Assembly (NCBI RefSeq): GCF_004214935.1
Contig: NZ_SFCC01000012.1
Coordinates: forward strand, 124,001 to 188,000
DNA from: Amycolatopsis suaedae
GTDB lineage: Bacteria > Actinomycetota > Actinomycetes > Mycobacteriales > Pseudonocardiaceae
DNA length: 64,000 nucleotides
Direction of reading: 5' to 3'
Shown: piece after piece, positions 482 through 19,080 of the stretch
Numbering within the stretch: position 1 is the stretch's first letter
Layout: the number at the start of each line of letters is the position of its first letter
Notes under the pieces: generated by a model
What the model was told of the DNA's origin: nothing
What the model saw: the letters and a program-made list of their open reading frames with translations, nothing else
Database searches by the model: none
Translations under genes and position numbers: made by a program

Positions 482-554
482 TTCTCGCAGGTCAACCATC
501 TTGCTAAAGTACGCCCGCGTCGGCATCACGATGTTATGGACGGGTGGGGGCACC

Positions 555-5120: not shown

Positions 5121-6232
5121 GGCGCGGGCACCTGCGCCAGGACGCGGAACCCACCGCCGCCGGCGAATTCCACGCGGCCGCCGAGTTCTTCGACCCGCTC
5201 GGTGATGCCGCGCAGCCCGTTGCCGGGGCGGATCGCGGCCGCACCCCGGCCGTCGTCCCACGCGCTGAACCGCACCTCACCGCCGGTCCCGGTGATCTCG
5301 ATCCACAGCTGGGTCGCCTCGGCATGGCGGATGGCGTTGGTGACGACCTCCTGCACGCAGCGGATCAGCGCCGCGGTGCGGGTCTCGTCGACCCGCACGG
5401 TGTCGTCGACGCGCAGGTGCACCGTCGGCTCGGGCAGGTCGGCGACCAGCTCGCGCAGGGTGTCGCGCAGGTCCGGGCTCCGGCGGCGCAGTTCGCCGAC
5501 GGCCGCGCGGACGTCCCCGAGCAGGCCCCGGGCCGTGGCGCGGGCCTGGGTGACGTGCTCGGCGGCGGGCCCGGACGCGGTGTGCGCGGCGACCTCCAGT
5601 TCGAGCGCGAGGACCGTCAGCTGGTGCCCGATCAGGTCGTGCAGCTCGCGGGAGATCCGCAACCGCTCGTCGGCTCTGGTCGATTCGGCCAGCAGTGCGG
5701 TGGCCGCACGCAGCTCGACGTGTGCCCCGGCGAGTTCCTGCCGGGTCCGCGCCTCCCGCAGCTGGACCAGTACCCCGAACAACACGCCCAGCTGCAGCAG
5801 CAGGTACAGCAGCGGAAGCAGCAGCATCTCCACGAGCCGTCCGGAGGTCATCCAGACCGCGGCGGCCACCACGCCAGTGTGCAGCACGATGATCGCCGCG
5901 CTGGTCCTCCTGCCGACCAGATAGCCGCTCGTTGCCGCCGTGTAGACCAGCAGAATCGGCGTCCAGCCGACCTGTGGTGCCAGCAGCACGAGGGCCGCGC
6001 CCAGCAGAACCTGCGCGGCGAACACCCGTCGCACGAGCACCGCCGAGGTGAGGTCGACCAGCCAGGTGCAGACCACCAGCGCCGTGGCGTAGCCGGCGAA
6101 GCAGATCCACCACAACCAGAAGGGAGCGGCGCCCGTGGCGCCGCCGGACAGCTGGACCACCAGGACCGGCACGGCGACGGTGACACAGACGAGCGTGCCG
6201 AAGATTCCGGACCACAGCTCGTCTCGCCGCAT
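5117..6232 (-). CDS. DesK/NarX-type sensor histidine kinase
   Basis: The 371-residue protein has about six hydrophobic N-terminal segments and almost no extracytoplasmic domain. A HisKA_3 dimerisation domain follows with the phospho-acceptor His in RELHDLIGHQL, then an HATPase_c domain with N-box (VVTNAIRHAE) and G1 box (DDGRG). The lack of a large sensor loop suggests sensing inside the membrane. The start at 6232 (MRRDELW) is preferred over the longer frame, because upstream residues read antisense to the ABC ATPase gene. It is divergent from the ABC exporter with a 111-bp shared intergenic region. Confidence 0.92.
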   Translation of the reverse strand: MRRDELWSGIFGTLVCVTVAVPVLVVQLSGGATGAAPFWLWWICFAGYATALVVCTWLVDLTSAVLVRRVFAAQVLLGAALVLLAPQVGWTPILLVYTAATSGYLVGRRTSAAIIVLHTGVVAAAVWMTSGRLVEMLLLPLLYLLLQLGVLFGVLVQLREARTRQELAGAHVELRAATALLAESTRADERLRISRELHDLIGHQLTVLALELEVAAHTASGPAAEHVTQARATARGLLGDVRAAVGELRRRSPDLRDTLRELVADLPEPTVHLRVDDTVRVDETRTAALIRCVQEVVTNAIRHAEATQLWIEITGTGGEVRFSAWDDGRGAAAIRPGNGLRGITERVEELGGRVEFAGGGGFRVLAQVPAP

Positions 6233-6343
6233 CCGTCCACTGTAAACGGCGGACTCCCCCGGTGACCCGTGCCGGAAGTCATGGCCTCCGATCGTGACCG
6301 CCGGCACGCGCGCGGCCCGGGGTCGCTGCCTAGCGTCGGTGGG

Positions 6344-7069
6344 GTGAAAGCGATCGAGATACACCGGCTGCACAAGCGCTACAAGCACGTCGTCGCCGTC
6401 GACAACCTGAGCCTGACGGTGGACCAGGGCGAGGTTTTCGGGCTGCTGGGCCACAACGGCGCGGGCAAGACCACGACCGTCGAGATCGTCGCGGGACTGG
6501 GCAAGCCCGACCGCGGCCGGGTCCGCGTGCTCGGGCTCGATCCGCTGCGGGAGCGCGCCGCCGTCCGGCGAGTGCTCGGTGTGCAGTTGCAGGACGCCGC
6601 CCTGCACCACGCGCTGACGGTGCGCGAACTGGTGCGGCTGTACCGGACGCTGTACCGCGACGGCGCCGACCCGGACGAGCTGATCGGCGCCGTCGGGCTC
6701 ACCGGAGCAGCTCGCACCCGGTACGACCGGCTCTCCGGCGGTCAGCAGCAGCGGCTGTCCATCGCGCTCGCCCTCGTCGGACGACCCCGCGTGGCGTTGC
6801 TCGACGAGCTGACCACCGGCCTGGATCCCCGTGCCCGCAGGGACATCTGGGCCCTGGTGGAGAACCTGCGCGCCGACGGGGTCGCCGTGCTGCTGGTCAG
6901 CCACCAGATGGAGGAGGTCGAACGGCTGTGTGACCGCGTCGTCCTGCTCGACCGCGGCAGGGTGATCGCGGCGGGCACGCCCGCCGACCTGGTGACCGAG
7001 GCCGGCGCGGTCACGCTCGACGACGCCTTCCTCGCCCTGACCGGCCGTCCCCACCAGGAGCTGTCGTGA
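6344..7069 (+). CDS. ABC transporter ATP-binding protein (DrrA-like)
   Basis: This is a 241-residue nucleotide-binding subunit with Walker A GHNGAGKT at 36-43, signature LSGGQQQR, Walker B VALLDE (followed by LTTGLDP, with Leu where Pro is usual) and a switch His in LLVSHQMEE. It belongs to the daunorubicin-resistance/CcmA type that pairs with ABC-2 permeases. GTG 6344 is chosen: a TAGCGT -10 hexamer (6331-6336) ends 7 nt before it, which fits a leaderless transcript. It overlaps the permease gene by 4 bp. Role: ATP-driven export of a hydrophobic compound or lipid; the substrate is unknown. Confidence 0.93.
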   Translation: MKAIEIHRLHKRYKHVVAVDNLSLTVDQGEVFGLLGHNGAGKTTTVEIVAGLGKPDRGRVRVLGLDPLRERAAVRRVLGVQLQDAALHHALTVRELVRLYRTLYRDGADPDELIGAVGLTGAARTRYDRLSGGQQQRLSIALALVGRPRVALLDELTTGLDPRARRDIWALVENLRADGVAVLLVSHQMEEVERLCDRVVLLDRGRVIAAGTPADLVTEAGAVTLDDAFLALTGRPHQELS

Positions 7070-7830
7070 CACCGGCGAGCCGGCCGGGCCCGCGAGCCTG
7101 GGCGGCCCTCATCGGTGCCGAGGCGCGGATGGTCGTCCGGGACACACCGGGCCTGCTCATCCCGTTCGCACTGCCCCTGCTGATCCTGGTGATGAACGCG
7201 CTCGGCTCGGCCAAGCAGGTAGTGCCGGGTACCGGCGGCCGTACCACGGTGGACCTCTACGTCGTCCCGCTGGCACTGGCGATCGGCACGGCCACCATCG
7301 CCGTGGTCAACCTGCCCAGTTTCCTCGCCTACTACCGCACCGCCGGGGTGTTGCGGCAGCTCGCCGTGACACCGGCACGGCCGATCATGGTGCTGGTGGC
7401 GCAACTGGTCGTCAGCGCGGCGCAGACAGCGGCAGGGATCGCGCTGGCGCTGGGGATCGCCACGGTCGCGTTCGACGTGCACCTGCCTGCCGCGCCGGCA
7501 GGTGCACTGGGCGTGCTGTGCCTGGCCGCGCTGGCGATGTACGCGGTCGGCCTGCTCGTCGCCGCGGTCGCGCCCACCGGCAACGCCGCCGTGGCGATCG
7601 GCATGACGCTGTTCTTCGCCATGGGCGCCGTGGGCGGCATGTTCGGCGGCACCGGCAACCTGCCCGGCGCGCTGGCCGGGATCGGTGAGGCGCTGCCGTT
7701 CGGGGCCGCGGTGAAGGCACTCGGGGCGGCCTGGGCCGGCGCCACGCCGCAACCGGCGCAGCTGGTGAGCCTGGCGGTCACCGTGGTGGTCTGCGGCCTG
7801 CTCGCCGCCCGGTTGTTCCGCTGGCGGTAG
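7066..7830 (+). CDS. ABC-2 type permease
   Basis: The 254-residue polytopic membrane protein has six hydrophobic segments and the ABC-2 pattern, including a cytoplasmic loop after TM2 (YYRTAGVLRQLAVTPARP) that resembles the coupling region of DrrB-type permeases. The GTG start overlaps the ATPase stop (GTGA), so the pair forms one exporter. It ends 7 bp from the convergent SDR gene of the next cluster. The substrate is not predictable from sequence. Confidence 0.9.
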   Translation: MTPASRPGPRAWAALIGAEARMVVRDTPGLLIPFALPLLILVMNALGSAKQVVPGTGGRTTVDLYVVPLALAIGTATIAVVNLPSFLAYYRTAGVLRQLAVTPARPIMVLVAQLVVSAAQTAAGIALALGIATVAFDVHLPAAPAGALGVLCLAALAMYAVGLLVAAVAPTGNAAVAIGMTLFFAMGAVGGMFGGTGNLPGALAGIGEALPFGAAVKALGAAWAGATPQPAQLVSLAVTVVVCGLLAARLFRWR

Positions 7831-7837
7831 TACGCCG

Positions 7838-8581
7838 TCAACGCAGGTAGAGGCCGCCGTTGGCGTCCCAGCAGGCACCGGTGACCGAGGCCGCGCCCGG
7901 TGAGGCGAGCAGGGCGACCATGTCGGCGATGAACGCCGGGTCGCCGAGCTGCCCGACCGGAATCCGGGCGGTGAAGGAGTCGAGGTCGGCGCCGACGATC
8001 GAGCGGACGGCGGGGCTGTCCAGCGGGCCCGGCGAGACGGCGTTGACGGTGACCCCCGAGGAGGCCAGCTCGCGGGCGAAGACCTTGGTGGCCGACAGGA
8101 TCGCTCCCTTGGATGCCGCGTAGTGGCCGCCGGTCGCGGTGCCGCCGTTCTGCCCGGCCAGCGACGCGAGGTTGACGATCCGGCCGTAGCCCCGCCCGGC
8201 GAGGTAGGCGCCGAAGACCTGGCAGGCCGTGAAGGTGCCGGTGAGGTTGACCGCCAGCACCTCCTCCAGTTCGGCCCGCGTGATCTCGAACAGCGGTGTG
8301 GCCTGGGTGCGGGCGGCGTTGTTGACCAGGATGTGCACGGTGCCGAAGTCGGCGACGACGTCGGCCAGCAGCCGTTCCAGCGCCGCGCGGTCGCTGACGT
8401 CGACGCGGTAACCGCGCGCCGTCGCGCCGGTGTCGTCGAGCCGGCCGGCCAGCGCGGTGGCCCCGGCGCCGTCGAGGTCGGCCACGGCGACCCGGCAGCC
8501 ACCGGTGTGCAGGCGGCGGACGAGGTACTCCCCCAGGCCGTTCGCGCCGCCGGTGACGACGGCGACCTGCCCGGCGGTCAC
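7838..8581 (-). CDS. iacE: SDR dehydrogenase of the iac-like cluster (IacE-like)
   Basis: This is a 247-residue classical short-chain dehydrogenase with the cofactor motif TGGANGLG (about 9-16), NNAA at the end of beta-4, and the catalytic Ser/YAASK set (Tyr in HYAASKG). It is the last gene of a minus-strand operon behind a flavin monooxygenase, an IacB-like protein and a Rieske oxygenase, and overlaps the beta subunit gene by 4 bp. In the proteobacterial indole-3-acetate pathway the SDR IacE acts early, on the hydroxylated product of IacA. The iacE assignment rests mainly on gene order; on sequence alone it is a generic FabG-like SDR. Confidence 0.75.
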   Translation of the reverse strand: MTAGQVAVVTGGANGLGEYLVRRLHTGGCRVAVADLDGAGATALAGRLDDTGATARGYRVDVSDRAALERLLADVVADFGTVHILVNNAARTQATPLFEITRAELEEVLAVNLTGTFTACQVFGAYLAGRGYGRIVNLASLAGQNGGTATGGHYAASKGAILSATKVFARELASSGVTVNAVSPGPLDSPAVRSIVGADLDSFTARIPVGQLGDPAFIADMVALLASPGAASVTGACWDANGGLYLR

Positions 8582-9084
8582 GGCAGGAACCCCGCCGCCG
8601 GCACGGCGTCGTCGCTGTCGACGAGCCGGACGACCTTCAGCGCGATCCGGTCGCCCGCCGGGTCCCCCGCCGACAGGCGGATCCGGTGCACGAGGTCGGC
8701 GGCCCAGATGTCGTGCCGCCCCCGTTTGTAGGCGATCAGCACCTGTGCCGACCGCAGCACGACCTCGTCGTCGGCGACCGACTCCGGCACGAACCGCGAC
8801 ACGGTGCGGACGGTGCGCGCGGCGTCCACGGCGGCGATGGCGTAGCCCTCGGTCATCCGGTTCACCCGCAGCCGCCGCATCCGGGCGTCGTCGTAGACCA
8901 TGTTGAGCGACGCGGCGAAGTCGGTGGCGTCGCGGTCGATCGGGACGACGTAGATCCCGTCTCCGGTGAACAGCTCGTTCCAGGCGGCGTAGTCCGGGCG
9001 GTCGAGCAGTTCGGCCTCCCGCCAGACGAGTTCGACCGCCCTGGCCACCCGGCGGTCGGTCAGGGACAGCGCGGTCTCAGGCAT
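8578..9084 (-). CDS. iacD: Aromatic-ring-hydroxylating dioxygenase beta subunit (IacD-like)
   Basis: The 168-residue protein has the cystatin/NTF2-like fold of Rieske oxygenase small subunits: an N-terminal helix with the pattern 'VARAVELVWREAELLDRPDY', W-x-x-L-F-x-x-D-G-x-Y, and a central R-x-x-R-x-x-R stretch. Its role is structural, supporting the alpha subunit hexamer. It overlaps the alpha subunit gene by 8 bp and the SDR gene by 4 bp, consistent with co-translation. The iac assignment comes from the neighbours. Confidence 0.8.
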   Translation of the reverse strand: MPETALSLTDRRVARAVELVWREAELLDRPDYAAWNELFTGDGIYVVPIDRDATDFAASLNMVYDDARMRRLRVNRMTEGYAIAAVDAARTVRTVSRFVPESVADDEVVLRSAQVLIAYKRGRHDIWAADLVHRIRLSAGDPAGDRIALKVVRLVDSDDAVPAAGFLP

Positions 9085-10342
9085 CGCTCATCATCCGCTT
9101 CCACTCGCCGTAGGCGGCACGCATTCCGGTCTCGTCGGTGACGTGGGAGGTCGGCAGGCCCCGCGGATCCGTTGCCTGCCTGGCCATTCCGCGGTTGACC
9201 AGGATCGCCATGTCCGGCGCGGCCCGCACCCCGCGCTGGACCCGGTCCCAGCCTTCGGCGTCGTCGGGTGTGCCGAACCCGAACGGTCCCTGGAAGTGCT
9301 CGTGGATGCGCAGCCGTTCCCGGTTGACCACGTCGAGTTCGGGCGGGCCGTCCGGGCCGATCGCGATGTGCTCGATCTCGGTCTCGTCCACCGCGACCGG
9401 GCGCAGCACCCGCAGGAACGACGAGGACAGCGACACGTTCGGGAACAGGTTGAGGTTGAACCCGGTGCCGTGCATGGCCCGCACCAGTTTGCGCACGGTG
9501 GCCGGATCGAGCGTCTGCGACAGTTCCGCGGCGATGCCCGCGAAGCGGGACGGCAACGGCTCGCTGCCGTCGTCGACGTCCAGATCGGAGTGCCCGGGCA
9601 CCATCCGCATGACGCTGTGGCCGTTGCCCAGATCGTGGGTGACCGCGGCGGGATCGGTCATGAACGACATCATGTCCGCGGTCTCGGCATCGACCGAGGC
9701 CATCCAGGACCGGTGCACGATCGGGAAGTGGTAGCCGTCGGTCGTGTTCTCCAGCTGGATCTTCCAGTTGCCCCGGTAGCGGAACCGGTGCCTGCCCAGG
9801 ACCTTGACCGGGTAACCGCCGCCCTGCTTGAAGAACCGGTCGATCCACGGAACGGCCTCACCGAGGAAGTCCGCCAGCGGCTCGCCGTCCCCGGCGAGGG
9901 TCGCGAACACCATGCCGCCGCAGACCTCGGTGCGCACCCGGTGCAGCGACAGCTCCCGCCGGTCGAACACGCCGTCGTAGCCCTGCGGGTAGGGCACCCC
10001 GCGCAGGGTTCCGTCCAGGCCGTAGGACCAGGCGTGGTACGGGCAGGTGAACCCGTTGGCCCGGCCCGAGGGCTTCTCGCACAGGCTCGCGCCGCGGTGC
10101 CTGCAGCGGTTGAGCAGCGTGTGCAGGACGCCCTGGCGGTCGCGGGTCACGATCACCGGCTGGCGGCCGATGTGCGCGGTCTTGAAGGTGCCCGGCTCCG
10201 GCAGCTCGCTCTCGTGCGCGACCCACACCCAGGTGCGTTCGAAGATGCCGGTGAGCTCACGCTCGAAGATCTCCGGGTCGGTGTAGAGCCGGCCGGCGAC
10301 CCGGTCCGGGGACACCAGGTCGCCGGGGGAATGCTCGGTCAT
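9077..10342 (-). CDS. iacC: Rieske non-heme iron oxygenase alpha subunit (IacC-like)
   Basis: The 421-residue protein has a Rieske [2Fe-2S] motif with Cys80-x-His82 and Cys100-x2-His103, and a catalytic domain carrying the mononuclear iron site (NTTDGYHFPIVH gives the two His; a downstream Asp is expected as third ligand). It needs electrons from a reductase and sometimes a ferredoxin. No ferredoxin gene is adjacent, although iacF is part of the proteobacterial cluster. The start at 10342 is chosen because upstream residues belong to the next gene in another frame and the Rieske N-terminus begins at a normal distance. In iac clusters this enzyme oxidises the indole-derived ring. Confidence 0.85.
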   Translation of the reverse strand: MTEHSPGDLVSPDRVAGRLYTDPEIFERELTGIFERTWVWVAHESELPEPGTFKTAHIGRQPVIVTRDRQGVLHTLLNRCRHRGASLCEKPSGRANGFTCPYHAWSYGLDGTLRGVPYPQGYDGVFDRRELSLHRVRTEVCGGMVFATLAGDGEPLADFLGEAVPWIDRFFKQGGGYPVKVLGRHRFRYRGNWKIQLENTTDGYHFPIVHRSWMASVDAETADMMSFMTDPAAVTHDLGNGHSVMRMVPGHSDLDVDDGSEPLPSRFAGIAAELSQTLDPATVRKLVRAMHGTGFNLNLFPNVSLSSSFLRVLRPVAVDETEIEHIAIGPDGPPELDVVNRERLRIHEHFQGPFGFGTPDDAEGWDRVQRGVRAAPDMAILVNRGMARQATDPRGLPTSHVTDETGMRAAYGEWKRMMSDA

Positions 10343-10356
10343 CGGGTGCTCCCTGC

Positions 10357-10734
10357 TCAGTCGGGAAGGGTGACGTCCTCGCGGACGGTGAGCGCGCGGC
10401 CGATGCGGGCCTCGATCCTGGCGAACTTCCACAGCTTGAACTCGGTGCCGCCGACGCCGGTGGTGCGCAGCAGGTTGCAGGCCGCCTTGACGGTCTCCTG
10501 CGTGTCGACGTCGGCGAGCAGGTAGCAGGTCCACGGCCAGCCCTCGGACGGGCCGACCATGTGCGAGTCGTCGTCGAAGTCGCCGATGAAGTCCACCCCG
10601 GGCAGGGCCTTGAGCTGGCCGGTCATCGAGACGAACGCCTGCCAGACGTCGCCGGCGGTGATGCCGTCCCTGGGCAGGTCGAAGAAGTTCTGGTTGATGC
10701 CGATGCAGAACAGCACCCGCAGTGGCTGGTTCAT
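10357..10734 (-). CDS. iacB: IacB-like small protein
   Basis: This soluble protein of about 125 residues has no obvious enzymatic motif. It looks like a ferredoxin-fold, EthD-type alpha+beta protein with a conserved aromatic patch (GWPWTCYLLADVD). It sits exactly where iacB lies in indole-acetate clusters, between the flavin monooxygenase and the Rieske alpha subunit, with the same size class. ATG 10734 is chosen because GAGGGGAG ends 5 nt upstream. IacB is needed for the pathway in proteobacteria, but its reaction is less well defined than those of IacA and IacE. The family link is from recollection of context and size, not an alignment. Confidence 0.65.
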   Translation of the reverse strand: MNQPLRVLFCIGINQNFFDLPRDGITAGDVWQAFVSMTGQLKALPGVDFIGDFDDDSHMVGPSEGWPWTCYLLADVDTQETVKAACNLLRTTGVGGTEFKLWKFARIEARIGRALTVREDVTLPD

Positions 10735-10748
10735 GGAACTCCCCTCGC

Positions 10749-11855
10749 TCAACGGAAACCGGGCGTCGTGGGTGGCAGTCCCATGAGGACGGCGCCTGCG
10801 GCGTCGTACATCGCGGGACCGAGGAAGGCGTGCTGCTTGGGGACCAGCGCGTCACCGAGCAGCAGCTGCAGCGGGTGGTCGTTGTTGATCGCGGCGGTTC
10901 CGGAGACCTCGACCAGCCTGGCGACGACATCGGACGACGTCCGCGCCAGGTGCGCCGCGGCGAGCCGGAGGTGGGCGTTCTGCTCGTCGCTGACGTCGTC
11001 GCCGGCGACGACGGTGTCCCACACCTCGTGGCTGAGGTCGTAGAACCAGGACCGGGCCGAGCGCAGCTCCGCCTCGGCGGTGGCGACCGCGGCGCGGTAG
11101 TACGCCCGGTCGGCCAGCTTGGGCGCGCCGGTCACCCCGGCGTACCCGGCACCGGTTTCCTCGGCGTGGTTCAGCGCGGCCCGCGCGACACCGGCGCCGA
11201 CGACGGCGAGAACCTGTGCCGCGTAGGCGATGGTCGGATAGCGGTACAGCGGCTCGTCAACGGTGGGTGCTCCGCCGCGGACGAACGTCCACTCCCTCGG
11301 CACCTCGACGCCCCGGACGACCAGGTCGAACGACCCGGTGCCACGCATGCCGACGACGTCCCAGTCCCGCACGATCTCCACCTGCTCCGGCCGCAGCAGC
11401 GCGACCCGCGGCTTGCCTGCGGTGGAGTCGTCGCCGGGAATGCCCACGCCGAGCACGTCGGCCGCCATGCAGCCGCTGGCGAACTTCCAGCGGCCCTCGA
11501 CCAGGAACCCGTCCCCGGTCGGCTCGGCGGGCTGCACCGGGAACAGGCCACCGGCGAAGACGACGTCCGGGCCGTCCCGGTACAGCTCGGCCTGGGTCTG
11601 CGGGGGCAGTGCGGCCAGGTAGATCAGGCCCGAGCCGAAGCTGGCCACCCAGCCGGCCGAGCCGTCGACGACCGAGATGCGCTCGATGCGGTCGAGGAAC
11701 TCCGCGGGTGGCAGCGGTTCGCCGCCGAACTTCGCCGGGGTGGCCGCGCGGTAGAGGCCCGTCTCCTTGAGGCGGTCGACGAAGTCCCTTGGCACGTAAC
11801 GCTGCTCGCGGAACTCCGCCCGCCGCCGGGCGAGCTCCGCCAGTACGGCGTCCAT
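10749..11855 (-). CDS. iacA: Flavin-dependent monooxygenase of acyl-CoA dehydrogenase fold (IacA-like)
   Basis: The 368-residue protein has the acyl-CoA dehydrogenase fold used by group D two-component monooxygenases (HsaA, HpaB-like, IacA). It has an N-terminal helical domain, a beta domain with W-K-F-A-S-G-C and G-M-R-G-T-G-S flavin-binding motifs, and a C-terminal helical bundle. Such enzymes take reduced flavin from a separate reductase; the gene at 13524-14027 can supply it. In iac clusters IacA starts indole-3-acetate degradation by hydroxylating the indole ring. It is the first gene of the minus-strand operon, with GAGGAG upstream of the ATG, and is divergent from the sensor kinase gene. 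Confidence 0.8.
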   Translation of the reverse strand: MDAVLAELARRRAEFREQRYVPRDFVDRLKETGLYRAATPAKFGGEPLPPAEFLDRIERISVVDGSAGWVASFGSGLIYLAALPPQTQAELYRDGPDVVFAGGLFPVQPAEPTGDGFLVEGRWKFASGCMAADVLGVGIPGDDSTAGKPRVALLRPEQVEIVRDWDVVGMRGTGSFDLVVRGVEVPREWTFVRGGAPTVDEPLYRYPTIAYAAQVLAVVGAGVARAALNHAEETGAGYAGVTGAPKLADRAYYRAAVATAEAELRSARSWFYDLSHEVWDTVVAGDDVSDEQNAHLRLAAAHLARTSSDVVARLVEVSGTAAINNDHPLQLLLGDALVPKQHAFLGPAMYDAAGAVLMGLPPTTPGFR

Positions 11856-11933
11856 CTGCTGCTCCTCGCGTCGGGTGTCCCCCGCACGGTACGAATCCGG
11901 CGCGGGTCACGGAATCGGTATTGCCTCTGCCCG

Positions 11934-11951
11934 CGTAGGGGATTCCTTCAG
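11934..11951. promoter_or_regulatory. 18-bp element in the iacA/kinase divergent promoter, copy 1
   Basis: CGTAGGGGATTCCTTCAG lies 24 bp upstream of the TACGCT -10 hexamer (11976-11981) that would drive a leaderless kinase transcript from GTG 11988. It matches 14 of 18 positions with a second copy at 13450-13467. Its location also allows control of the divergent iacA operon. It is a candidate site for the FixJ-type regulator at 15488-16114. Confidence 0.5.
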
Positions 11952-11987
11952 TAGGTGCGGCCCGCGCACCCGCCCTACGCTGACGGG

Positions 11988-13454
11988 GTGCAGGCCGATC
12001 CGCGCGCCCCCGAGCTGATCACGGACGACTTCGTGGCGATGATGAACGCCACCCGGACGTGTGTACTCCTCCACGACGCCGCGACCAAGAACATCCTGTG
12101 GGCCAACCCGGCCGCCTGCGAGATGCTCGAGTGGACCGTCACCGAGCTGCGGCCGCTCAAGGCGAACCACATGAGCAGCTCGGCGCAGCAGTACGACCGG
12201 GTGATCGGCCGGGCGTGGCTGCAGGAAGCCGTCGACAAGGGCGCCAGCCGGATCGAGTGGCACTACCGCAGCAGGTCCGGCCGGGTGATCCCGACCGACG
12301 CGCTGGCCGTCCGCGTCGAACTGGCCCAGGGGCCCGCGGTGATGGTGCAGTTCCGCGACATCGAACGGGAGCAGCGGATCGAACGCGAGCTGCGGCGCAC
12401 CACGTCCTATGTCGACGCGCTGGCCCACCACACCTCGACGGCCGCGCTCATGCTCGACGCGGACGGCGCGCTGCGGTTCGCCACCGACACGGCCGCCACC
12501 CTGCTCGGCGCGGACCCGACCGAGCCGCTCGGGCCGCTGACCGGCTACGGCAGGCTGCGCCTGGACGGCCGTCCGGCGACGTGGGAGCAGGCCGTGACGC
12601 GGGCCGACCCGGTGGCCGCGGTCGGGCTGGAGGTTCCCCGCGGCGACGGCGACCCGGTGTGGCTGGAAGGCAGCCTGGAACGGCTGCGGCAGGCCGACGG
12701 CGACGCGCTGCTGATGATCCTGCACGACGTCTCCGACCGGGTACACCAGGAAGTGCGCAGGGAACGCGAGCTGCACCGGGAGAACTACCTGGCCCGCTAC
12801 ACCGCGATGGGCGACATGGCGATGGCGATTGCGCACGAGCTCGGCCAGCCGCTGTCGGCAGCGGGCAACTTCCTGGCCGGGCTGCGGGCCCGCGCCGGCG
12901 CGCTGGCGGTGGCAGGCGAGCTGGGCTACGGCATCGACAGCGCGGTCCGCCAGATCGAGCGGGCCAGCGCGATCGTCGCGTCGGTGCGGGCGTTCGTCGG
13001 TCACCTCGAACACGTCCACCAGGAGGTGGACCTGGGCGAGATCGTCGAGGAATGCCTGTACTTCGTGCGGCTGCGCGCCGAGCCGGCCGGGGTGCTGGTG
13101 ACGGTCCGGCACGACGGGCCGGTGCGGGTGCGCTGCGAGCGCGTGCTCACCGGGCAGGTCGTGCTCAACCTCTGTTTCAACGCGATCGACGAGCTGGCGG
13201 CCTGCGACCCGGCGCGGCGGCGGCTCACGATCACCACCCGGACCGAGGACGGCCGCGGCGTCCTCACCGTCGACGACGAGGGCCGCGGCCTGCCCGCCGA
13301 CCCGTTCGCCGGGTCGTTCACCGCCAAGGAACACGGCAGCGGCATCGGGCTGGCGCTGAGCTACCGGATCATCACCCGCCAGCACGGCACCATCTGGGCA
13401 CAGCGGCGCGACGAGGGCGGCTCGCGGTTCGGCTTCACCCTGCCCCTGGCGTAG
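11988..13454 (+). CDS. PAS-domain sensor histidine kinase of the iac-like cluster
   Basis: The 488-residue soluble kinase has an N-terminal PAS domain (about 14-110), a second degenerate PAS-like region (about 130-235), a HisKA domain with phospho-acceptor His283 in AIAHELGQPL, and an HATPase_c domain with N box (CFNAIDELA) and a G box (SGIGLALSY). No membrane segment is present, so it probably senses an intracellular aromatic ligand or redox state. The architecture resembles StyS/TodS/FixL-type kinases, whose partners are FixJ-type regulators; the only one nearby is at 15488-16114. GTG 11988 has TACGCT 6 nt upstream (leaderless); GTG 11955 is the longer alternative. Confidence 0.88.
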   Translation: MQADPRAPELITDDFVAMMNATRTCVLLHDAATKNILWANPAACEMLEWTVTELRPLKANHMSSSAQQYDRVIGRAWLQEAVDKGASRIEWHYRSRSGRVIPTDALAVRVELAQGPAVMVQFRDIEREQRIERELRRTTSYVDALAHHTSTAALMLDADGALRFATDTAATLLGADPTEPLGPLTGYGRLRLDGRPATWEQAVTRADPVAAVGLEVPRGDGDPVWLEGSLERLRQADGDALLMILHDVSDRVHQEVRRERELHRENYLARYTAMGDMAMAIAHELGQPLSAAGNFLAGLRARAGALAVAGELGYGIDSAVRQIERASAIVASVRAFVGHLEHVHQEVDLGEIVEECLYFVRLRAEPAGVLVTVRHDGPVRVRCERVLTGQVVLNLCFNAIDELAACDPARRRLTITTRTEDGRGVLTVDDEGRGLPADPFAGSFTAKEHGSGIGLALSYRIITRQHGTIWAQRRDEGGSRFGFTLPLA

Positions 13455-13467
13455 GGGAAATCCTCAG
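13450..13467. promoter_or_regulatory. 18-bp element before the flavin reductase gene, copy 2
   Basis: CGTAGGGGAAATCCTCAG overlaps the kinase stop codon and lies 44 bp upstream of the TAGGCT -10 hexamer of the next gene. Compared with copy 1, the distance from element to -10 differs by 20 bp, about two helical turns, so a protein bound at both sites would face the polymerase the same way. Confidence 0.5.
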
Positions 13468-13523
13468 CCGCGGCGGTGTTACTCACGATGCCCCGGCGCC
13501 CGCGCACGCCGTAGGCTTTCCCC

Positions 13524-14027
13524 GTGCCCGAGCCGACCCGGACCCAGCTGGAGTTCCGCTCCGCGATGGCGAACCTGTCCGCCGCGGTGAACGTGATCAC
13601 CACCGACGGGCCGCACGGCCGCGCCGGGCTGACCGTCAGCGCGGCCTGCTCGGTGACCGACTCGCCGCCGACGATGCTGGTCTGCGTCAACCGGTCGGCC
13701 CGCTCGCACGGCGTCCTGCTGGCCAACGGGCGGGTGTGCGTCAACGTGCTCGGCGCCGAACACGAGGACCTGGCCCGCTACTTCGCGGGCGGGGCGGGCG
13801 TGCCACCCGCGCAGCGGTTCACCGACGGCCGGTGGGACCTGGACACCGAGGGCGTCCCGGTGCTGCGGGACGCCCTCGCCTCGGTGGTCGGCCGGATCGT
13901 GGCCGAGCAGACCCAGGGGTCGCACTCGGTGCTGTTCGTCGAGGTCGACACGGTGCCCGAGCCGGCAACCGACAGCGGTGCGCTGGTCTACTTCCAGCGC
14001 CGGTACCACAACCTGGCGGCGTCGTGA
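13524..14027 (+). CDS. iacG: Flavin reductase, DIM6/NTAB type (IacG-like)
   Basis: The 167-residue protein belongs to the flavin_reduct domain family (HpaC/ActVB/NTAB). It has the typical start F-R-x-A-M-x-x-L-x-x-x-V-x-V-I-T-T-D-G-x-x-G-R-x-G-L-T-V-S-A, a central P-P-T-M-L-V-C-V-N flavin-binding stretch and a G-R-V-C-V-N-V-L segment. It would pass reduced FMN/FAD to the IacA-like monooxygenase. GTG 13524 is preceded by TAGGCT with a 6-nt gap, indicating a leaderless transcript. It is coupled (GTGA overlap) to a small gene and then to an amidase. Confidence 0.85.
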   Translation: MPEPTRTQLEFRSAMANLSAAVNVITTDGPHGRAGLTVSAACSVTDSPPTMLVCVNRSARSHGVLLANGRVCVNVLGAEHEDLARYFAGGAGVPPAQRFTDGRWDLDTEGVPVLRDALASVVGRIVAEQTQGSHSVLFVEVDTVPEPATDSGALVYFQRRYHNLAAS

Positions 14028-14281
14028 ACCGGATGACGCTCACCTGCTACAACGACACCCACGGCTACGGCTGGCGGCACGTCGACCTGTTCGTCCACGA
14101 CGCCGGGGGACGCGAGCTGAGCTGGGTGCACTGGCAGGTGCCCGAGGACGGCCCGGAGGCCGCCGACGCGGTGACCGCCGAGGTCGAGCCGCTGCTGCGG
14201 CGCACGTCCGAGTGGCGGCACGGGGTGAGCGAGAGCGGGATGGACTACTGGGTGGCCGACGCCGAATGGGCGCGGCCGTGA
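14024..14281 (+). CDS. Small protein between flavin reductase and amidase, function unknown
   Basis: This acidic 85-residue protein reads from GTG 14024, which overlaps the flavin reductase stop (GTGA); ATG 14033 is the alternative. It is rich in Trp, His and Tyr (HGYGWRHVDLFVHD, SWVHWQV, SGMDYWVADAEW) and has no signal peptide or membrane segment. I do not recognise the family. Coupling on both sides (it ends in GTGA with the amidase) argues that it is a real gene and functions in the same pathway, perhaps as an accessory subunit. Confidence 0.65.
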   Translation: MNRMTLTCYNDTHGYGWRHVDLFVHDAGGRELSWVHWQVPEDGPEAADAVTAEVEPLLRRTSEWRHGVSESGMDYWVADAEWARP

Positions 14282-15498
14282 CCGGGCCGTGGTCGCTGCG
14301 TGAGCTGGCCGGCGAACTCGCCCGCGGCACGATCACGCCGGCCGAGGCCGTCGCCCGGTCCCGCGCCCGCATCGCCGGGACCGACGCCGCGCTGCACGCG
14401 TGGGTCGCCCAGGATCCCGGCGCGCCCGGCGGGATCCCGCTCGGCGTGAAGGACATCATCGACCTGGCCGGCCTCCCGACCCGCTGCGGCAGCGTCCTGC
14501 GGGCGGACGCCACGCCGGCGCGGGCCGACGCGGCGATCGTCACCGCCTGGCGCCGGGCCGGCGCGGCACCGGTCGGCAAGACCGCCACCACCGAGTTCGC
14601 CTACTTCGCCCCCGGGCCCACCGGCAATCCGGCGGCGCCCGGCCACACCCCGGGCGGCTCGTCGAGCGGGTCGGCCGCGGCCGTCGCGGCCGGGCAGGTG
14701 CCGCTGGCCCTGGGCACGCAGACCGCCGGCTCGGTGACCAGGCCCGCGGCGTTCTGCGGGGTGGCGTCGCTGGTGTTCAGCCACGGCCGGTTCCCGATGG
14801 ACGGGGTCACCGCACTCAGCCCGAGCCTGGACAGCCACGGCGTGTTCGCCGCCCGGGTCGCCGATCTCGCCCTGGCGTGGTCGATGCTGACCGGCGAGCC
14901 CGAGCCCGGCCCCGGCCGTCCACCCCGGCTGCTGGCCTGGACGGCGGTGCCGCTCGGGGTCGTCGGCACGGAGATGTCCGGCGCGCTGGCCGCCGCCCGG
15001 CGGAGGCTGACCGAGGCGGGCGCGGTGGTCGACGACTTCCCCGACGAGCGGCTGATCGCCGAGGTCACCGCCGCCCACGCGGTGGTGATGGCCTACGAGG
15101 CCGCCCGCGAGCGGGCCGCCGAGCTGGCCGACCGGGACCGGCTGAGCCCGCAGCTGACCGGGCTGCTGGACACCGGCGCGGCGACCCCGGACGGCGACTA
15201 CCAGGCCGCGCGGGAGGTCGTCGCCGCGGCCCGGCCCCGGGTGGCGGACCTGCTGGCGTCCTACGACGCCATGCTGGGCCCGGCCGCCCCGGGCCCGGCT
15301 CCGGCCGGGCTGGCGGCGACCGGCGACCCGGCGGTCAGCCGGGCGTGGCAGGCGCTGGGGCTGCCCGCGGCGGGCGTGCCGGGCCTGGTCACCGCGGCGG
15401 GGCTGCCGCTCGGGCTCCAGCTCGTCGGCCCGGCGGGCGGCGAGCCCGCGCTGCTCGGAGTCGCGTGCTGGGCGGAGGCCGCGCTCGTCAGACCGTGA
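14278..15498 (+). CDS. iacH: Amidase-signature family hydrolase (IacH-like)
   Basis: The 406-residue amidase-signature enzyme has the Ser-cisSer-Lys triad visible: Lys in LGVKDIID, the Gly/Ser-rich stretch TPGGSSSGSAAAVAAG, and the nucleophile Ser in QTAGSVTRPA. Family members hydrolyse C-N amide bonds; in iac clusters IacH acts on a ring-opened amide or lactam intermediate. GTG 14278 overlaps the previous stop (GTGA); ATG 14266 is an alternative start. The gene overlaps the convergent response-regulator gene by 11 bp at its 3' end. Confidence 0.8.
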   Translation: MTGPWSLRELAGELARGTITPAEAVARSRARIAGTDAALHAWVAQDPGAPGGIPLGVKDIIDLAGLPTRCGSVLRADATPARADAAIVTAWRRAGAAPVGKTATTEFAYFAPGPTGNPAAPGHTPGGSSSGSAAAVAAGQVPLALGTQTAGSVTRPAAFCGVASLVFSHGRFPMDGVTALSPSLDSHGVFAARVADLALAWSMLTGEPEPGPGRPPRLLAWTAVPLGVVGTEMSGALAAARRRLTEAGAVVDDFPDERLIAEVTAAHAVVMAYEAARERAAELADRDRLSPQLTGLLDTGAATPDGDYQAAREVVAAARPRVADLLASYDAMLGPAAPGPAPAGLAATGDPAVSRAWQALGLPAAGVPGLVTAAGLPLGLQLVGPAGGEPALLGVACWAEAALVRP

Positions 15499-16114
15499 CC
15501 TGGTGGACCAGGACGTCCCGGACGAGTGCGCCGAGGCTGTCCGCTCCGGTCTTCGCCTTGATCCGGGCGCGGTGGACGTCGATGGTCTTCACGCTGGCGC
15601 TCAGCCGCCGCGCGATGTGCTGGCTGGGCAGTCCCTCGACGACCAGCCGGAGTACCTCGCGTTCCCGTGGTGTCAGCGTGCCGATGCGGCGCTGGACGTC
15701 CTGCCTGCGGGCGTGCTCGGCGAACCGCTCGCGGGCCTCGATCAGCTGCTGCTGCACGACTTCGAGCATGCGCTGCGGCTGGTAGGGCTTTTCCAGGAAG
15801 TCGGCGGCGCCGCCTGCCATCGCGCGGACCGACATCGGGATGTCGCCGTGTGCCGAGCAGAAGATGACCGGCGCGGGGTGGCCGAGCTGCCGTAACCGCT
15901 CCTGCAGCCCGAACCCGCTGATCCCGGGCATGCGCACGTCGACGATGACCACCGCGGGCTCGTCCGGGTCGAACTCGGCGAGGAACGAGGCCGCGTCGGG
16001 GTAGGTGAGCGCCTGGACGCCCACGCTGTCGAGCAGGAAGACCAGCGACCGCCGCAGGTCCTCGTCGTCGTCGACGATGTGGACGACCGGCTCTGGCGAT
16101 CCCGGGGCTGCCAT
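15488..16114 (-). CDS. FixJ-type response regulator of the iac-like cluster
   Basis: The 208-residue protein has a receiver domain (VDDDED near residue 15, phospho-acceptor Asp59 in VVIVDVRMPG, Lys in FLEKPYQP) and a LuxR-type HTH (LTPREREVLRLVVEGLPSQHIARRL). The KPYQP-type linker region is typical of FixJ/StyR/TodT regulators. It is the third gene of a GntR, NTF2-like, regulator operon and lies 4 bp after the NTF2-like gene. The cognate kinase is probably the PAS kinase at 11988, separated by the flavin reductase/amidase genes. The CGTAGGGGA elements at 11934 and 13450 are candidate targets. Confidence 0.88.
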   Translation of the reverse strand: MAAPGSPEPVVHIVDDDEDLRRSLVFLLDSVGVQALTYPDAASFLAEFDPDEPAVVIVDVRMPGISGFGLQERLRQLGHPAPVIFCSAHGDIPMSVRAMAGGAADFLEKPYQPQRMLEVVQQQLIEARERFAEHARRQDVQRRIGTLTPREREVLRLVVEGLPSQHIARRLSASVKTIDVHRARIKAKTGADSLGALVRDVLVHQVTV

Positions 16115-16118
16115 GCGC

Positions 16119-16676
16119 TCATGGTCTCATCAACACCGACGCCGCCGGGTGATCACCGGGCCATGAGTGCGGCAGCGGCGCGACGAAGACGTTCTCGGTC
16201 CGGGTGCGGGTGATCTTCCAGCTGCCGCCGGTCCTGCGGAAGGCGTTGTTCAGCCTGCTCGACCGCAGCAGCGACCGGCCGTCGGAGAACAGCCAGGGCT
16301 GGACGTGGATCCACTGGCCGGTCGCCTCCTGCCCGGTGACGTGGATCTGTTCCGAGGTCAGGTAATGCGCGTTGAGCACCAGGGCGGGATCCCGCTTCTC
16401 GCCCCAGAACCGCTCGAAGTGCGCGCGGATGGCGGCGGCTCCCTCAGCGCGGCCGAACTGGCCGTCGTAGTACTCCCCCACGCCCTCCCAGACGGCGTCC
16501 TCGGTGTAGAGCTCCATGATCAGGTCGATCCGCCGCGCATCGTCCGTGACGCCGTACTCGGGGCAGGGGGTGTCGCACAGGAACACGTACCGGGCCTGCA
16601 GGCGGCGGATCTCGGCCTCGGCCTCGAGCACCTCGACCCGGCGCAGCAGGTCGGCAACCGTCGTCTCGATCGTCAT
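16119..16676 (-). CDS. SnoaL/NTF2-like protein
   Basis: The 185-residue protein has a SnoaL-like alpha+beta-barrel pattern: an N-terminal helix, RLQARYVFLCD, then R-I-D-L-I-M-E-L-Y-T-E-D-A-V-W, and a C-terminal strand ending W-K-I-T-R-T-R-T-E-N. Family members include scytalone-dehydratase-like enzymes, polyketide cyclases and ring-hydroxylating dioxygenase beta-like proteins. Here it lies between a GntR regulator and a FixJ-type regulator next to the iac-like genes. It might be the counterpart of IacI, but I cannot confirm that from sequence alone. Its catalytic residues are not clear. Confidence 0.75.
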   Translation of the reverse strand: MTIETTVADLLRRVEVLEAEAEIRRLQARYVFLCDTPCPEYGVTDDARRIDLIMELYTEDAVWEGVGEYYDGQFGRAEGAAAIRAHFERFWGEKRDPALVLNAHYLTSEQIHVTGQEATGQWIHVQPWLFSDGRSLLRSSRLNNAFRRTGGSWKITRTRTENVFVAPLPHSWPGDHPAASVLMRP

Positions 16677-16688
16677 GGGAACGGGACG

Positions 16689-17336
16689 CTACGCGAGCCC
16701 TGCGGCGGTCTGCGTGAGGTGCCGGGTGAGCAGGTCCGCGGCGGCGTCGGCGTCCCTGGCCAGTGCGGCTTCCTCCAGCCCGCGGTGCTCGGCGAGGTGG
16801 TCCCGGCCGGGGTCGCGGCCGGCGGCCCAGCGGCGGGTCAGCTCGCCCGCGAGCCACATCCGGTCGAACGTCTCCAGCAGCACGTCGTTGCCGCTGCCCT
16901 CCAGCAGGGTGCGGTGGAAGACGCGGTGCGCCTCCGACCACTGTGGACTGACGCCGCCGGTTCCCGGCTCGTGCGTCGGCGTGTTCGCCAGCCGGTGGTG
17001 TGCCGCGCGGACCCGTGCCTCCCAGTCGAGGTCGCCGCGGGCGATGGACATCCGCAGCGTCGCGGGTTCGATCGTGCTCCGCGCCTCGGCCAGGTCCTGC
17101 CACCGCTTGGCCGACTGGAGCGGGACCGCGAAGCCGCGGTTGGTGAGCCGGTCGGCCAGGCCGTCGCCGACCAGGCGGACCAGCGCCTCCCGCACCACCG
17201 CGAGGCTCACCCCGTGCGCCCCGGCCAGCTCCTGCGGTTTGAGGGCGTCGCCGGGCGCGAAGTCGCCGCGCAGGATCGCGTCGCGCAGCTCGGCGTACAC
17301 GCGCCCGGACAGCATCTGCTTGGTCCCCTGAGCCAT
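16689..17336 (-). CDS. GntR-family regulator (FadR-type)
   Basis: The 215-residue regulator has an N-terminal winged helix (VYAELRDAILRGDFAPGDALKPQELAGAHGVS) and a C-terminal FCD/FadR-like all-helical ligand domain with conserved His/Arg/Asp positions. FCD proteins usually bind small carboxylates through a metal, and indole-derived or aromatic acids are plausible. ATG 17336 is chosen because a TACGAT -10 hexamer lies 6 nt upstream on the minus strand, implying a leaderless transcript. The gene heads the operon with the NTF2-like and FixJ-type genes. A near-perfect 20-bp palindrome between it and the divergent PEBP gene is its probable operator. Confidence 0.88.
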   Translation of the reverse strand: MAQGTKQMLSGRVYAELRDAILRGDFAPGDALKPQELAGAHGVSLAVVREALVRLVGDGLADRLTNRGFAVPLQSAKRWQDLAEARSTIEPATLRMSIARGDLDWEARVRAAHHRLANTPTHEPGTGGVSPQWSEAHRVFHRTLLEGSGNDVLLETFDRMWLAGELTRRWAAGRDPGRDHLAEHRGLEEAALARDADAAADLLTRHLTQTAAGLA

Positions 17337-17357
17337 GCCGACATCGTAGACCATTTG

Positions 17358-17377
17358 ACAGATAATCGATTTTCTGT
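17358..17377. promoter_or_regulatory. 20-bp palindromic GntR operator in a divergent promoter
   Basis: ACAGATAATCGATTTTCTGT equals its own reverse complement at 18 of 20 positions. It starts inside the TTGACA -35 of the PEBP promoter (17355-17360, -10 TATCGT at 17380-17385) and lies just upstream of the TACGAT -10 of the GntR gene. A bound regulator would repress both directions. Confidence 0.6.
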
Positions 17378-17392
17378 GCTATCGTCGATCTC

Positions 17393-17905
17393 GTGAACGA
17401 TCCTTTCGCCCGCCTTCCCGAGGCAGCCACCTTCACCGTCACCAGTAACTCCGTCACCGACGGCGGCACGCTCGCCGCCGAGCAACTGGCCGGCGCGGAC
17501 GTCTCGCCGCAGCTGTCCTGGACCGGCGCCCCCGAGGGCACGAAGAGCTACGCCGTCACCGCCTACGACCCGGACGCCCCCACCGGTTCCGGGTTCTGGC
17601 ACTGGGCCGTCGCCGACATCCCGGCGACGGTGACCGGCCTGCCCGCCGGAGCGGGCGACGCCACCGGCTCGGGCCTGCCGGAGGGCGCCTTCCAGCTGCC
17701 CAACGACGCCCGCGAGGCCCGGTTCGTCGGCGCCGCCCCGCCCGCGGGCCACGGCAGGCACCGGTACCTGTTCGTCGTGCACGCGCTCGACGTCGCCACG
17801 ATCGGCGTCCCGGCCGACGCCACCCCGGCCTACCTCGGCTTCACCATCGCCGGCCACATCCTGGGCCGGGCCGTGCTGACGGCGACGGCGGAAACGCCCG
17901 CCTGA
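17393..17905 (+). CDS. YbhB/YbcL-family PEBP-like protein
   Basis: The 170-residue cytosolic protein has PEBP/Raf-kinase-inhibitor-like motifs: an S-P-Q-L-S-W core, D-P-D-A-P-x-G-S-G-F-W-H-W and a G-H-G-x-H-R-Y-x-F-x-V-H-A-L-D block that builds the anion pocket. Bacterial YbhB proteins have no firmly established role; ligand or phosphate-ester binding is likely. GTG 17393 follows TATCGT by 7 nt and TTGACA is 19 bp further up, so the promoter is good and the mRNA leaderless. The gene is divergent from, and probably controlled by, the GntR regulator. Confidence 0.88.
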   Translation: MNDPFARLPEAATFTVTSNSVTDGGTLAAEQLAGADVSPQLSWTGAPEGTKSYAVTAYDPDAPTGSGFWHWAVADIPATVTGLPAGAGDATGSGLPEGAFQLPNDAREARFVGAAPPAGHGRHRYLFVVHALDVATIGVPADATPAYLGFTIAGHILGRAVLTATAETPA

Positions 17906-17907
17906 GT

Positions 17908-19080
17908 TCAGCCGGCGCGGCCGTGGCGCAGCAGCGCGGGCAGGGCGACGGCGAGCGCCACCGCCCTGGCCACGCCGGCGAGCTGGTACGGCACGCGGAG
18001 ACCGAGCCCGTGCGCGACCAGGCCGCCGGCGAGCATGCCGAGCGGGATCAGTCCCCAGCCGAGCAGCTTGTAGACGCTGTTGACCCGGCCGAGCAAAGTG
18101 GACGGAACGAGTCGCTGCCGCAGCGTCGCGGTGGCGACGTTCCACATGGTCGTCGCGAAGCCGCCCAGGGCGAGGAAACAGCCGAGGGTGACCGGGCCGG
18201 GGCTGAACCCGGCCCCGACGAGCGCGACGACGTTGAGGGCCGCCGCGACGACGAGCGACGAACCGGCCCGCAGCGGGACGTGCGCGCTGATCAGTCCACT
18301 CAGGACACTGCCTGCGCCTGCCGCCGTGAGCAGCAGGCCGTAGCCCCCGGCGCTGACCTGCAGGGTCTGGGTGGCGAACAGGACCAGCGTGGCGTTCGCC
18401 AGCTGGCCGAAGAAGGTGTTGACACCGAGCAGGACGGCTACGGTGCGCAGCAGGCGATGCCGCGTCAGCCAGCGCAGGCCCTCCGCGACGGCCGTACGCA
18501 CGGGTTTCCGCTCCCGGCGGCCGGTTTTCGGCAGCCCGGACAGCAGGAAGGCGGCCACGGCGAACGACCCCGCGGTGACCGCGAACGGCAGCCCGGCCGA
18601 GACGGCGAACAGAGCGCTGCCCAGCGGCGGCCCGGCGAACTGGTGCCCCGCGGTGATCACCGCCTGCTGGGCCCCGTTGGCCCTGTGCAGCATGGGCCCG
18701 GGAACGACGTCGGGCAGCACCGTCTGGACGGCGACGCCGAGCACGACGGTGCAGATTCCCAGCGCGAACGCGAGCACCGCCAGGGTGGCGATGCCGATCC
18801 CGTCCAGCGCGGCGAGAATGCCGGTGGCCGCGACGATCGCGGCCGCCACCAGCTGGGTCCGCCACATCAGGCCCGCCCGGTCGAACCGGTCCACCCACGT
18901 CCCGGCCGGCAGCGCCACCAGCAACCACGGCAGGTAGGCCATGGTGGAGATCGCCGTGACCAGCCGGGGATCACGCGTGATCGTGATCGCCAGCAGCGGC
19001 ACCGCGGCGACGCAAGCGCCGCTGCCCATTCCTTCGATTCCGGTGGCCGCGACCAGCCGCCGGTACCCCGCCGCACCCAT
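17908..19080 (-). CDS. MFS exporter (EntS/MFS_3-like)
   Basis: The 390-residue transporter has about 10-12 hydrophobic segments and MFS motif A in the loop after TM2 (GTWVDRFDRAGLM). It resembles the MFS_3 group (enterobactin exporter EntS and macrolide-efflux-like proteins). It ends 2 bp from the convergent PEBP gene and is divergent from the winged-helix regulator at 19147. Role: proton-driven efflux of an unidentified small molecule. Regulation by the divergent HTH protein is plausible. Confidence 0.85.
   Translation of the reverse strand: MGAAGYRRLVAATGIEGMGSGACVAAVPLLAITITRDPRLVTAISTMAYLPWLLVALPAGTWVDRFDRAGLMWRTQLVAAAIVAATGILAALDGIGIATLAVLAFALGICTVVLGVAVQTVLPDVVPGPMLHRANGAQQAVITAGHQFAGPPLGSALFAVSAGLPFAVTAGSFAVAAFLLSGLPKTGRRERKPVRTAVAEGLRWLTRHRLLRTVAVLLGVNTFFGQLANATLVLFATQTLQVSAGGYGLLLTAAGAGSVLSGLISAHVPLRAGSSLVVAAALNVVALVGAGFSPGPVTLGCFLALGGFATTMWNVATATLRQRLVPSTLLGRVNSVYKLLGWGLIPLGMLAGGLVAHGLGLRVPYQLAGVARAVALAVALPALLRHGRAG

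Follow-up and report, generated by a model that had tools for sequence, protein, structure and literature searches.

A 64,000-nucleotide stretch of the Amycolatopsis suaedae genome (the window; part of contig C3 of a 7.54-Mb assembly in 32 contigs) carries, at positions 7838-16676, what is probably an actinobacterial iac gene cluster, through which this soil actinomycete would catabolise the auxin indole-3-acetate (IAA). Homologues of iacA, iacB, iacC, iacD, iacE, iacH and iacI are joined in this region by a flavin reductase in the role of IacG. Judged by gene content and order, the cluster is of the ordinary actinobacterial iac type apart from iacF, whose loss is specific to this lineage, and two of its features are worth following: a family of small proteins linked to IacC, and a regulon with two predicted operator sites. 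We base this reading on homology, synteny, operator conservation, co-inheritance and the loss of iacF, and assign every reaction by analogy with characterised proteobacterial relatives; the sensing ligand, regulator-operator binding, the role of the small protein and the electron donor are points we infer. Auxin breakdown by plant-associated actinomycetes has been little tested to date.

The iac genes and their relatives

The markers iacA, iacB and iacI have been used to define iac-like loci (PMC9613470). All three are present in the window and align over their full length or nearly so, and as far as homology and gene content go, the iac assignment is therefore well founded. Our reference was the complete annotated iac cluster of an Acinetobacter plasmid, which runs MarR regulator, amidase, acyl-CoA dehydrogenase, 'IacB protein', NTF2-like protein, Rieske alpha and beta subunits, short-chain dehydrogenase, PDR/VanB reductase and flavin reductase; together with Burkholderiales and other loci it stood in for the proteins of Pseudomonas putida 1290 and PsJN. 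On the minus strand, the iacA homologue (10749-11855) encodes a predicted flavin-dependent IAA monooxygenase of the acyl-CoA-dehydrogenase fold, 46% identical to Acinetobacter IacA, 65% to a Streptomyces and 58% to a Burkholderia counterpart; a PDB sequence search with it returned remote monooxygenases only (Rv3094c, HsaA). The iacB homologue (10357-10752; 131 residues; 58% to the annotated 'IacB protein') is followed by the genes for the alpha and beta subunits of a Rieske oxygenase, iacC (9077-10342; 55% to Acinetobacter IacC, 72% to Rhodococcus YL-1) and iacD (8578-9084; Ring_hydroxyl_B; 34% to Acinetobacter IacD, 64% to Rhodococcus YL-1). These two genes overlap, and the Rieske CxH-CxxH and DxxHxxxxH motifs are intact, as is the YxxxK motif (beside GxxxGxG) in the product of iacE (7838-8581; 50% to Acinetobacter IacE, 57% to Streptomyces), a short-chain dehydrogenase that would convert 2-oxo-IAA (Ox-IAA) to dioxindole-acetate (DOAA).

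On the plus strand lie the HpaC/RutF-type flavin reductase (13524-14027; Flavin_Reduct; 56% to a Streptomyces iac-linked reductase, 22% to the longer Acinetobacter IacG) and the iacH homologue, an amidase-signature hydrolase (14278-15498; Amidase PF01425; 32% to Acinetobacter IacH, 49% to Streptomyces). An NTF2/SnoaL-like gene (16119-16676, minus strand; SnoaL_4) is iacI, as judged from its alignment to the Acinetobacter protein at that position (34%) and to Rhodococcus YL-1 (78%). A GntR/FCD regulator (16689-17354, minus strand), classed by Pfam and NCBIfam, lies outside the conserved unit: this gene and the PEBP-like and MFS genes beyond it (16689-19080) were considered as cluster members and set aside, as they are unmatched in the loci of 80 relatives, yet the GntR gene is co-directional with the NTF2-like and regulator genes.

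A preliminary description of this region had named these genes and likened A to E and H to iac proteins. All of them proved to be open reading frames, located where it put them or close by, their enzyme and regulator classes are upheld by Pfam and NCBIfam, and identities of 32-58% to the Acinetobacter proteins bear out the likeness. The role it proposed for an IacG-like flavin reductase is supported as well. It was also right that a MarR-type iacR is lacking (the cluster regulators are a PAS kinase and a FixJ-type protein), that an extra small gene is coupled to its neighbours, and that catechol genes lie outside the cluster. The FixJ, GntR and NTF2-like genes which it placed after the amidase are real, but their order has to be corrected, with the NTF2-like gene standing between the other two; the GntR gene, counted there as part of the cluster, has no counterpart in relatives' loci. 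To that description we add the identity of IacI, the lineage-specific nature of the iacF loss, the link of the small gene to IacC and the position of the GntR gene outside the conserved unit.

The layout, at first taken to be rearranged and peculiar, turned out to be the common one. Ten congener loci share an identical block of NTF2-like protein, regulator, amidase, 85-residue protein, reductase and kinase, divergent from A, B, C, D and E, and the same block is carried by most of 80 named actinomycete loci that were collected with an IacA profile (Saccharopolyspora, Amycolatopsis, Nocardia, Pseudonocardia, Prauserella, Nonomuraea, Streptomyces, Rhodococcus, Arthrobacter and others). The presence of iac-like loci in Actinobacteria was known from a genome scan of 2022 (PMC9613470). 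In many of the 80 loci catABC stands beside the cluster, as expected for a pathway that yields catechol. In the genome of the window, catA (59%), catC (54%) and a weaker catB (31%) are found together on another contig (G000:C11, at about 380 kb), where they adjoin an apparent phenol hydroxylase pair, judged by sequence.

The literature leaves the role of IacB unresolved (PMC7225977), and neither the 131-residue IacB homologue nor the 85-residue protein has a family match in Pfam or NCBIfam. An AlphaFold model of the IacB homologue predicts a ferredoxin-like alpha+beta domain (ABM/SnoaB-like; predicted local distance difference test, pLDDT, 87.5). In Foldseek the top matches were SnoaB and further small enzymes of the ABM type (E 2e-3, probability 1.0, TM about 0.45-0.56), and a structural aligner ranked ribosomal S6 and muconolactone-isomerase-like proteins equally high (Z 8-9), which supports the fold and not a function. 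Three congener loci (L034 9836-10204, L039 9784-10883, L040 9826-10931) hold an IacB homologue (64-79%) that has neither IacA nor IacC in its vicinity; two of these homologues lie next to a short-chain dehydrogenase.

Two-component system and predicted operator

Divergent from iacA is the gene of a cytosolic PAS sensor histidine kinase (11955-13454, plus strand), which has two PAS domains, HisKA and HATPase domains, an intact HELGQP H-box and no strongly hydrophobic segment. Its presumed partner is a FixJ/NarL-type response regulator (15488-16114, minus strand) with receiver (Response_reg) and GerE domains, 59% and 54% identical to iac-linked regulators of Streptomyces and Rhodococcus. The preliminary description had credited the cluster with a two-component system of its own. 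This does not hold, given that iacA of Cupriavidus sp. P-10 has a homologous kinase (40%) and regulator (48%) on its flanks and that Pseudomonas iac operons with a putative two-component system have been published (PMC11630574); the same work shows that MarR-type IacR is not universal in the iac family.

The gap between the kinase gene and iacA contains a predicted 16-bp response-regulator operator, TGAAGGAATCCCCTAC (11935-11950, minus strand), and a second predicted copy, TGAGGATTTCCCCTAC (13451-13466, minus strand), lies ahead of the flavin reductase operon. Of the 69 kinase-iacA gaps in the window and its relatives, 66 match a degenerate 15-bp core in every position and one more does so within one mismatch; the Cupriavidus gap is included among these matches, in the form TAAAGGAAATACCTAT. 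Most relatives have equivalent sites ahead of the flavin reductase gene as well. With a weight matrix, 175 sites were found in 80 loci, against 12 in shuffled sequence, most of them between kinase gene and iacA or ahead of the reductase gene and others near catB, iacI and genes for MHS-type or SSS-type transporters; because the matrix was trained on kinase-iacA gaps, the count for the gap is partly circular, which is not the case for the reductase and transporter sites. Across the whole 7.5-Mb genome, exactly two sites match with at most one mismatch, namely the two given above, before both divergent operons, and the reversed pattern, used as a control over the same genome, gave none. Kinase, regulator and operator are thus co-conserved, and from this pattern we infer that the regulator binds the operator. 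A two-site operator of this kind offers a clean handle for an auxin reporter.

In several relatives, operator copies precede genes for MHS-type MFS transporters or SSS-type symporters (L068 2613, L085 3174, L088 3245, L095 3196, L122 4450, L084 15040). The transporters behind these copies are candidate IAA importers, as their position suggests; the genome of the window has no operator site beside a transporter gene.

An 85-residue protein and IacC

The small gene between reductase and amidase (14024-14281, plus strand) is coupled to both by GTGA overlaps and encodes an 85-residue protein of an undescribed family, 62-68% identical to iac-linked proteins of Rhodococcus and Streptomyces. In most relatives the start is a methionine three residues further in, giving 82 residues; family members range from 82 to 92 residues around the conserved core HxVDLFxHD...WVHW...DGPDxAD...EPxLxR...W. 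One congener copy (L036 13562-13810, G014) has an in-frame TAG, either as a pseudogene or through a sequencing error. The AlphaFold model is a strand-rich domain with one helix (pLDDT 92.8), for which no convincing PDB match was obtained (Foldseek best E 0.16; VIA best Z 4.9, to unrelated proteins), a result that does not by itself prove a new fold.

The protein occurs in 21 of 80 genomes of the genus, each time within a few kb of iacA, and in one of 395 genomes drawn across the class. On plasmids it was found only in three actinobacterial records that bear IacB, and in none of the 25 other IacB-bearing records. Among 41 genomes chosen for IacA, IacC (threshold E <= 1e-150) is present in 24 and the 85-residue protein in the identical 24, while the remaining 17 have neither; two genomes carry two copies of each. 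The naive Fisher p-value for this co-occurrence is about 7e-12, which overstates the significance since the genomes are related. Actinophytocola, Nonomuraea, Nocardioides and Streptomyces each include both states, as does Amycolatopsis once the window is counted, so the association is not the inheritance of a single clade.

Given that the protein is inherited with IacC and is absent from loci in which kinase, regulator, reductase and IacA stay, it follows the Rieske step rather than sensing. We tentatively propose that the family works in the IacCD oxygenase step as a component peculiar to Actinobacteria and takes part in the conversion of DOAA to catechol, an assignment that might well prove right but on which we would not insist from distribution patterns. 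This conversion is recorded as an unfilled gap in the iac pathway (PMC7225977), for which a protein so strictly linked to IacC in actinomycetes is a testable candidate. That the protein instead belongs to sensing, as a ligand-binding partner of the kinase with no catabolic part, is suggested by Rhodococcus YL-1 and Streptomyces NBC_00564, in which its gene adjoins the regulator and/or kinase genes. We consider this improbable, since four loci (L069, L102, L110, L123) keep kinase, regulator, reductase and IacA and lack both IacC and the 85-residue gene, and since in Geodermatophilus (L120) the gene lies beside IacC, D, F and H in a 21-kb locus in which no kinase or regulator was seen. Three of these four loci, from Nonomuraea (L102, L110) and Nocardioides (L123), have IacA, flavin reductase, kinase and regulator only, the other iac genes being absent from the fetched locus, and their genomes have no IacC; such minimal modules might possibly carry out IAA hydroxylation only.

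Loss of iacF, the fate of IAA and known systems

In all ten complete congener loci iacF follows directly after iacE. In the window, 8 bp separate the end of iacE (7838) from that of an ABC-2 permease gene running towards it, and tblastn with five congener IacF proteins revealed neither iacF nor a remnant of it there (best E 0.13), so the absence of an adjacent iacF, already remarked on in the preliminary description, stands. With iacF missing, the cluster is not classed as a complete canonical iacABCDEFGHI operon, of which it does hold iacE, iacH and the flavin reductase. In a tree of concatenated A to E, the sister of the window is Actinophytocola xinjiangensis (support 0.993), whose locus also lacks iacF; Saccharopolyspora flava and relatives form a separate clade (support 1.0) that lost iacF and kept C, D and the 85-residue gene. 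When A, B, E, kinase, regulator and reductase are used, the sister is Actinophytocola gossypii (0.998), which has kept only regulator, reductase, kinase, A, B and E (L069 7300-12250) and whose reduced cluster is predicted to stop at DOAA. The missing iacF of A. xinjiangensis and the reduced locus of A. gossypii indicate that the cluster is being trimmed in this lineage, and the absence of iacF is, on the evidence of these trees and loci, a lineage-specific loss.

At the position of the congeners' iacF, the window has a NarL-type regulator, a kinase and an ABC-2 transporter pair (4467-7830). The permease adjoining iacE was rejected as a conserved replacement, having a close match (53%) in one of 79 congeners, for which reason the region looks like a local insertion or rearrangement. 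In A. xinjiangensis and S. endophytica, inspection by eye of the reading frames that directly follow iacE, without a family-library search, revealed no recognisable replacement reductase. Further out in the window (501-3998), an XRE-type helix-turn-helix stands ahead of a large AfsR/SARP-like regulator that carries TPR repeats, as judged by eye.

In the pathway we propose, the PAS kinase would detect IAA or an intermediate intracellularly and phosphorylate the FixJ-type regulator, which would bind the TGARGRWWTCCCCTAC operator in front of both iacABCDE and the operon of reductase, 85-residue gene and iacH. IacA, with reduced flavin from the reductase, would form 2-hydroxy/2-oxo-IAA, and IacE would form DOAA, reactions that have been demonstrated for the enzymes of Caballeronia (PMC7225977). 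IacCD, with the 85-residue protein as an actinobacterial accessory and with some part also played by IacB, IacH and IacI, might then take DOAA towards catechol, to be degraded by the cat genes elsewhere in the genome. Since IacF is lost, IacCD would have to draw electrons from another reductase.

Several points weigh against this reading of the cluster. We found no growth, expression or enzyme data for any actinomycete locus, and the relatedness of the 41 genomes weakens the statistics of co-occurrence. The best paralogues of IacF in the genome are only 38-41% identical to congener or Streptomyces IacF, and a substitute marked by the operator was sought in vain, as the genome has only the two sites. 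Moreover, A. gossypii, reduced to A, B, E, reductase and two-component system, implies that in this lineage the pathway may end in something other than catechol. One could therefore imagine that auxin is inactivated and not mineralised, with IacCD starved of electrons and IAA ending as DOAA. The loss of iacF in both the window and A. xinjiangensis, the absence of C, D, H, I and the 85-residue gene from A. gossypii, which looks like stepwise trimming to an IAA-to-DOAA pathway, and the lack of catechol genes adjoining the cluster all fit this scenario, which we regard as the less likely outcome. What speaks for continued function of the Rieske step is that IacC and IacD are intact, with motifs kept and about 78% identity to the versions in complete clusters, and that the S. 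flava clade independently lacks iacF yet keeps C, D and the 85-residue gene. In addition, three PDR/VanB-type paralogues could stand in for IacF, the ferredoxin of the related iad system of Variovorax is not strictly required (PMC9613470), and cat genes are present in the genome. A lineage losing iacF and then IacCD is a natural experiment on whether auxin is eaten or merely switched off.

The substrate itself might also differ. Caballeronia IacA and IacE take other indole-3-alkanoates, converting indole-3-propionate and -butyrate (PMC7225977), so the natural substrate may be a compound other than IAA, a further point against our reading. If the relation to iac were one of homology only, the cluster could serve indole-propionate, indole-butyrate, oxindole-type metabolites or another indole or aromatic compound; identities to proteobacterial Iac proteins are 32-58%, and the folds are common to other catabolic monooxygenases and Rieske enzymes. 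This we hold to be hardly probable, because the full set of A, B, C, D, E, H, I and flavin reductase is co-located, both markers by which iac loci are told apart from iad loci (IAA to anthranilate), namely IacB and IacI (PMC9613470), are present, matches to HsaA, AntA and BenA of other characterised pathways fall far below curated cut-offs, and catABC so frequently adjoins. Catabolism of IAA through an iac pathway is the reading we prefer.

Compared with the iac clusters of Acinetobacter, Enterobacter soli and P. putida 1290 (iacHABICDEFG, with MarR-type IacR), the window shares the co-located A, B, C, D, E, H, I and flavin reductase. It differs in lacking iacF, in having a two-component system in place of IacR, a short HpaC-type flavin reductase and the extra 85-residue gene, and in its divergent operons and the location of the cat genes on another contig. 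The regulatory side resembles that of the betaproteobacterium Cupriavidus sp. P-10, which, besides the related kinase and regulator, has a short flavin reductase (51%), a kinase gene divergent from iacA and a similar operator; there, in contrast, iacF is present, the 85-residue gene is absent and the gene order is another. The two-component iac operons of Pseudomonas (PMC11630574) are likened here on the basis of the paper. With the iac loci of other actinomycetes (Amycolatopsis, Saccharopolyspora, Nocardia, Pseudonocardia, Streptomyces, Rhodococcus, Arthrobacter) the window has the gene block, the 85-residue protein, the two-component system and the operator in common, whereas nearly all of them have kept iacF and in many the cluster is accompanied by catABC and by a transporter gene with an operator of its own.

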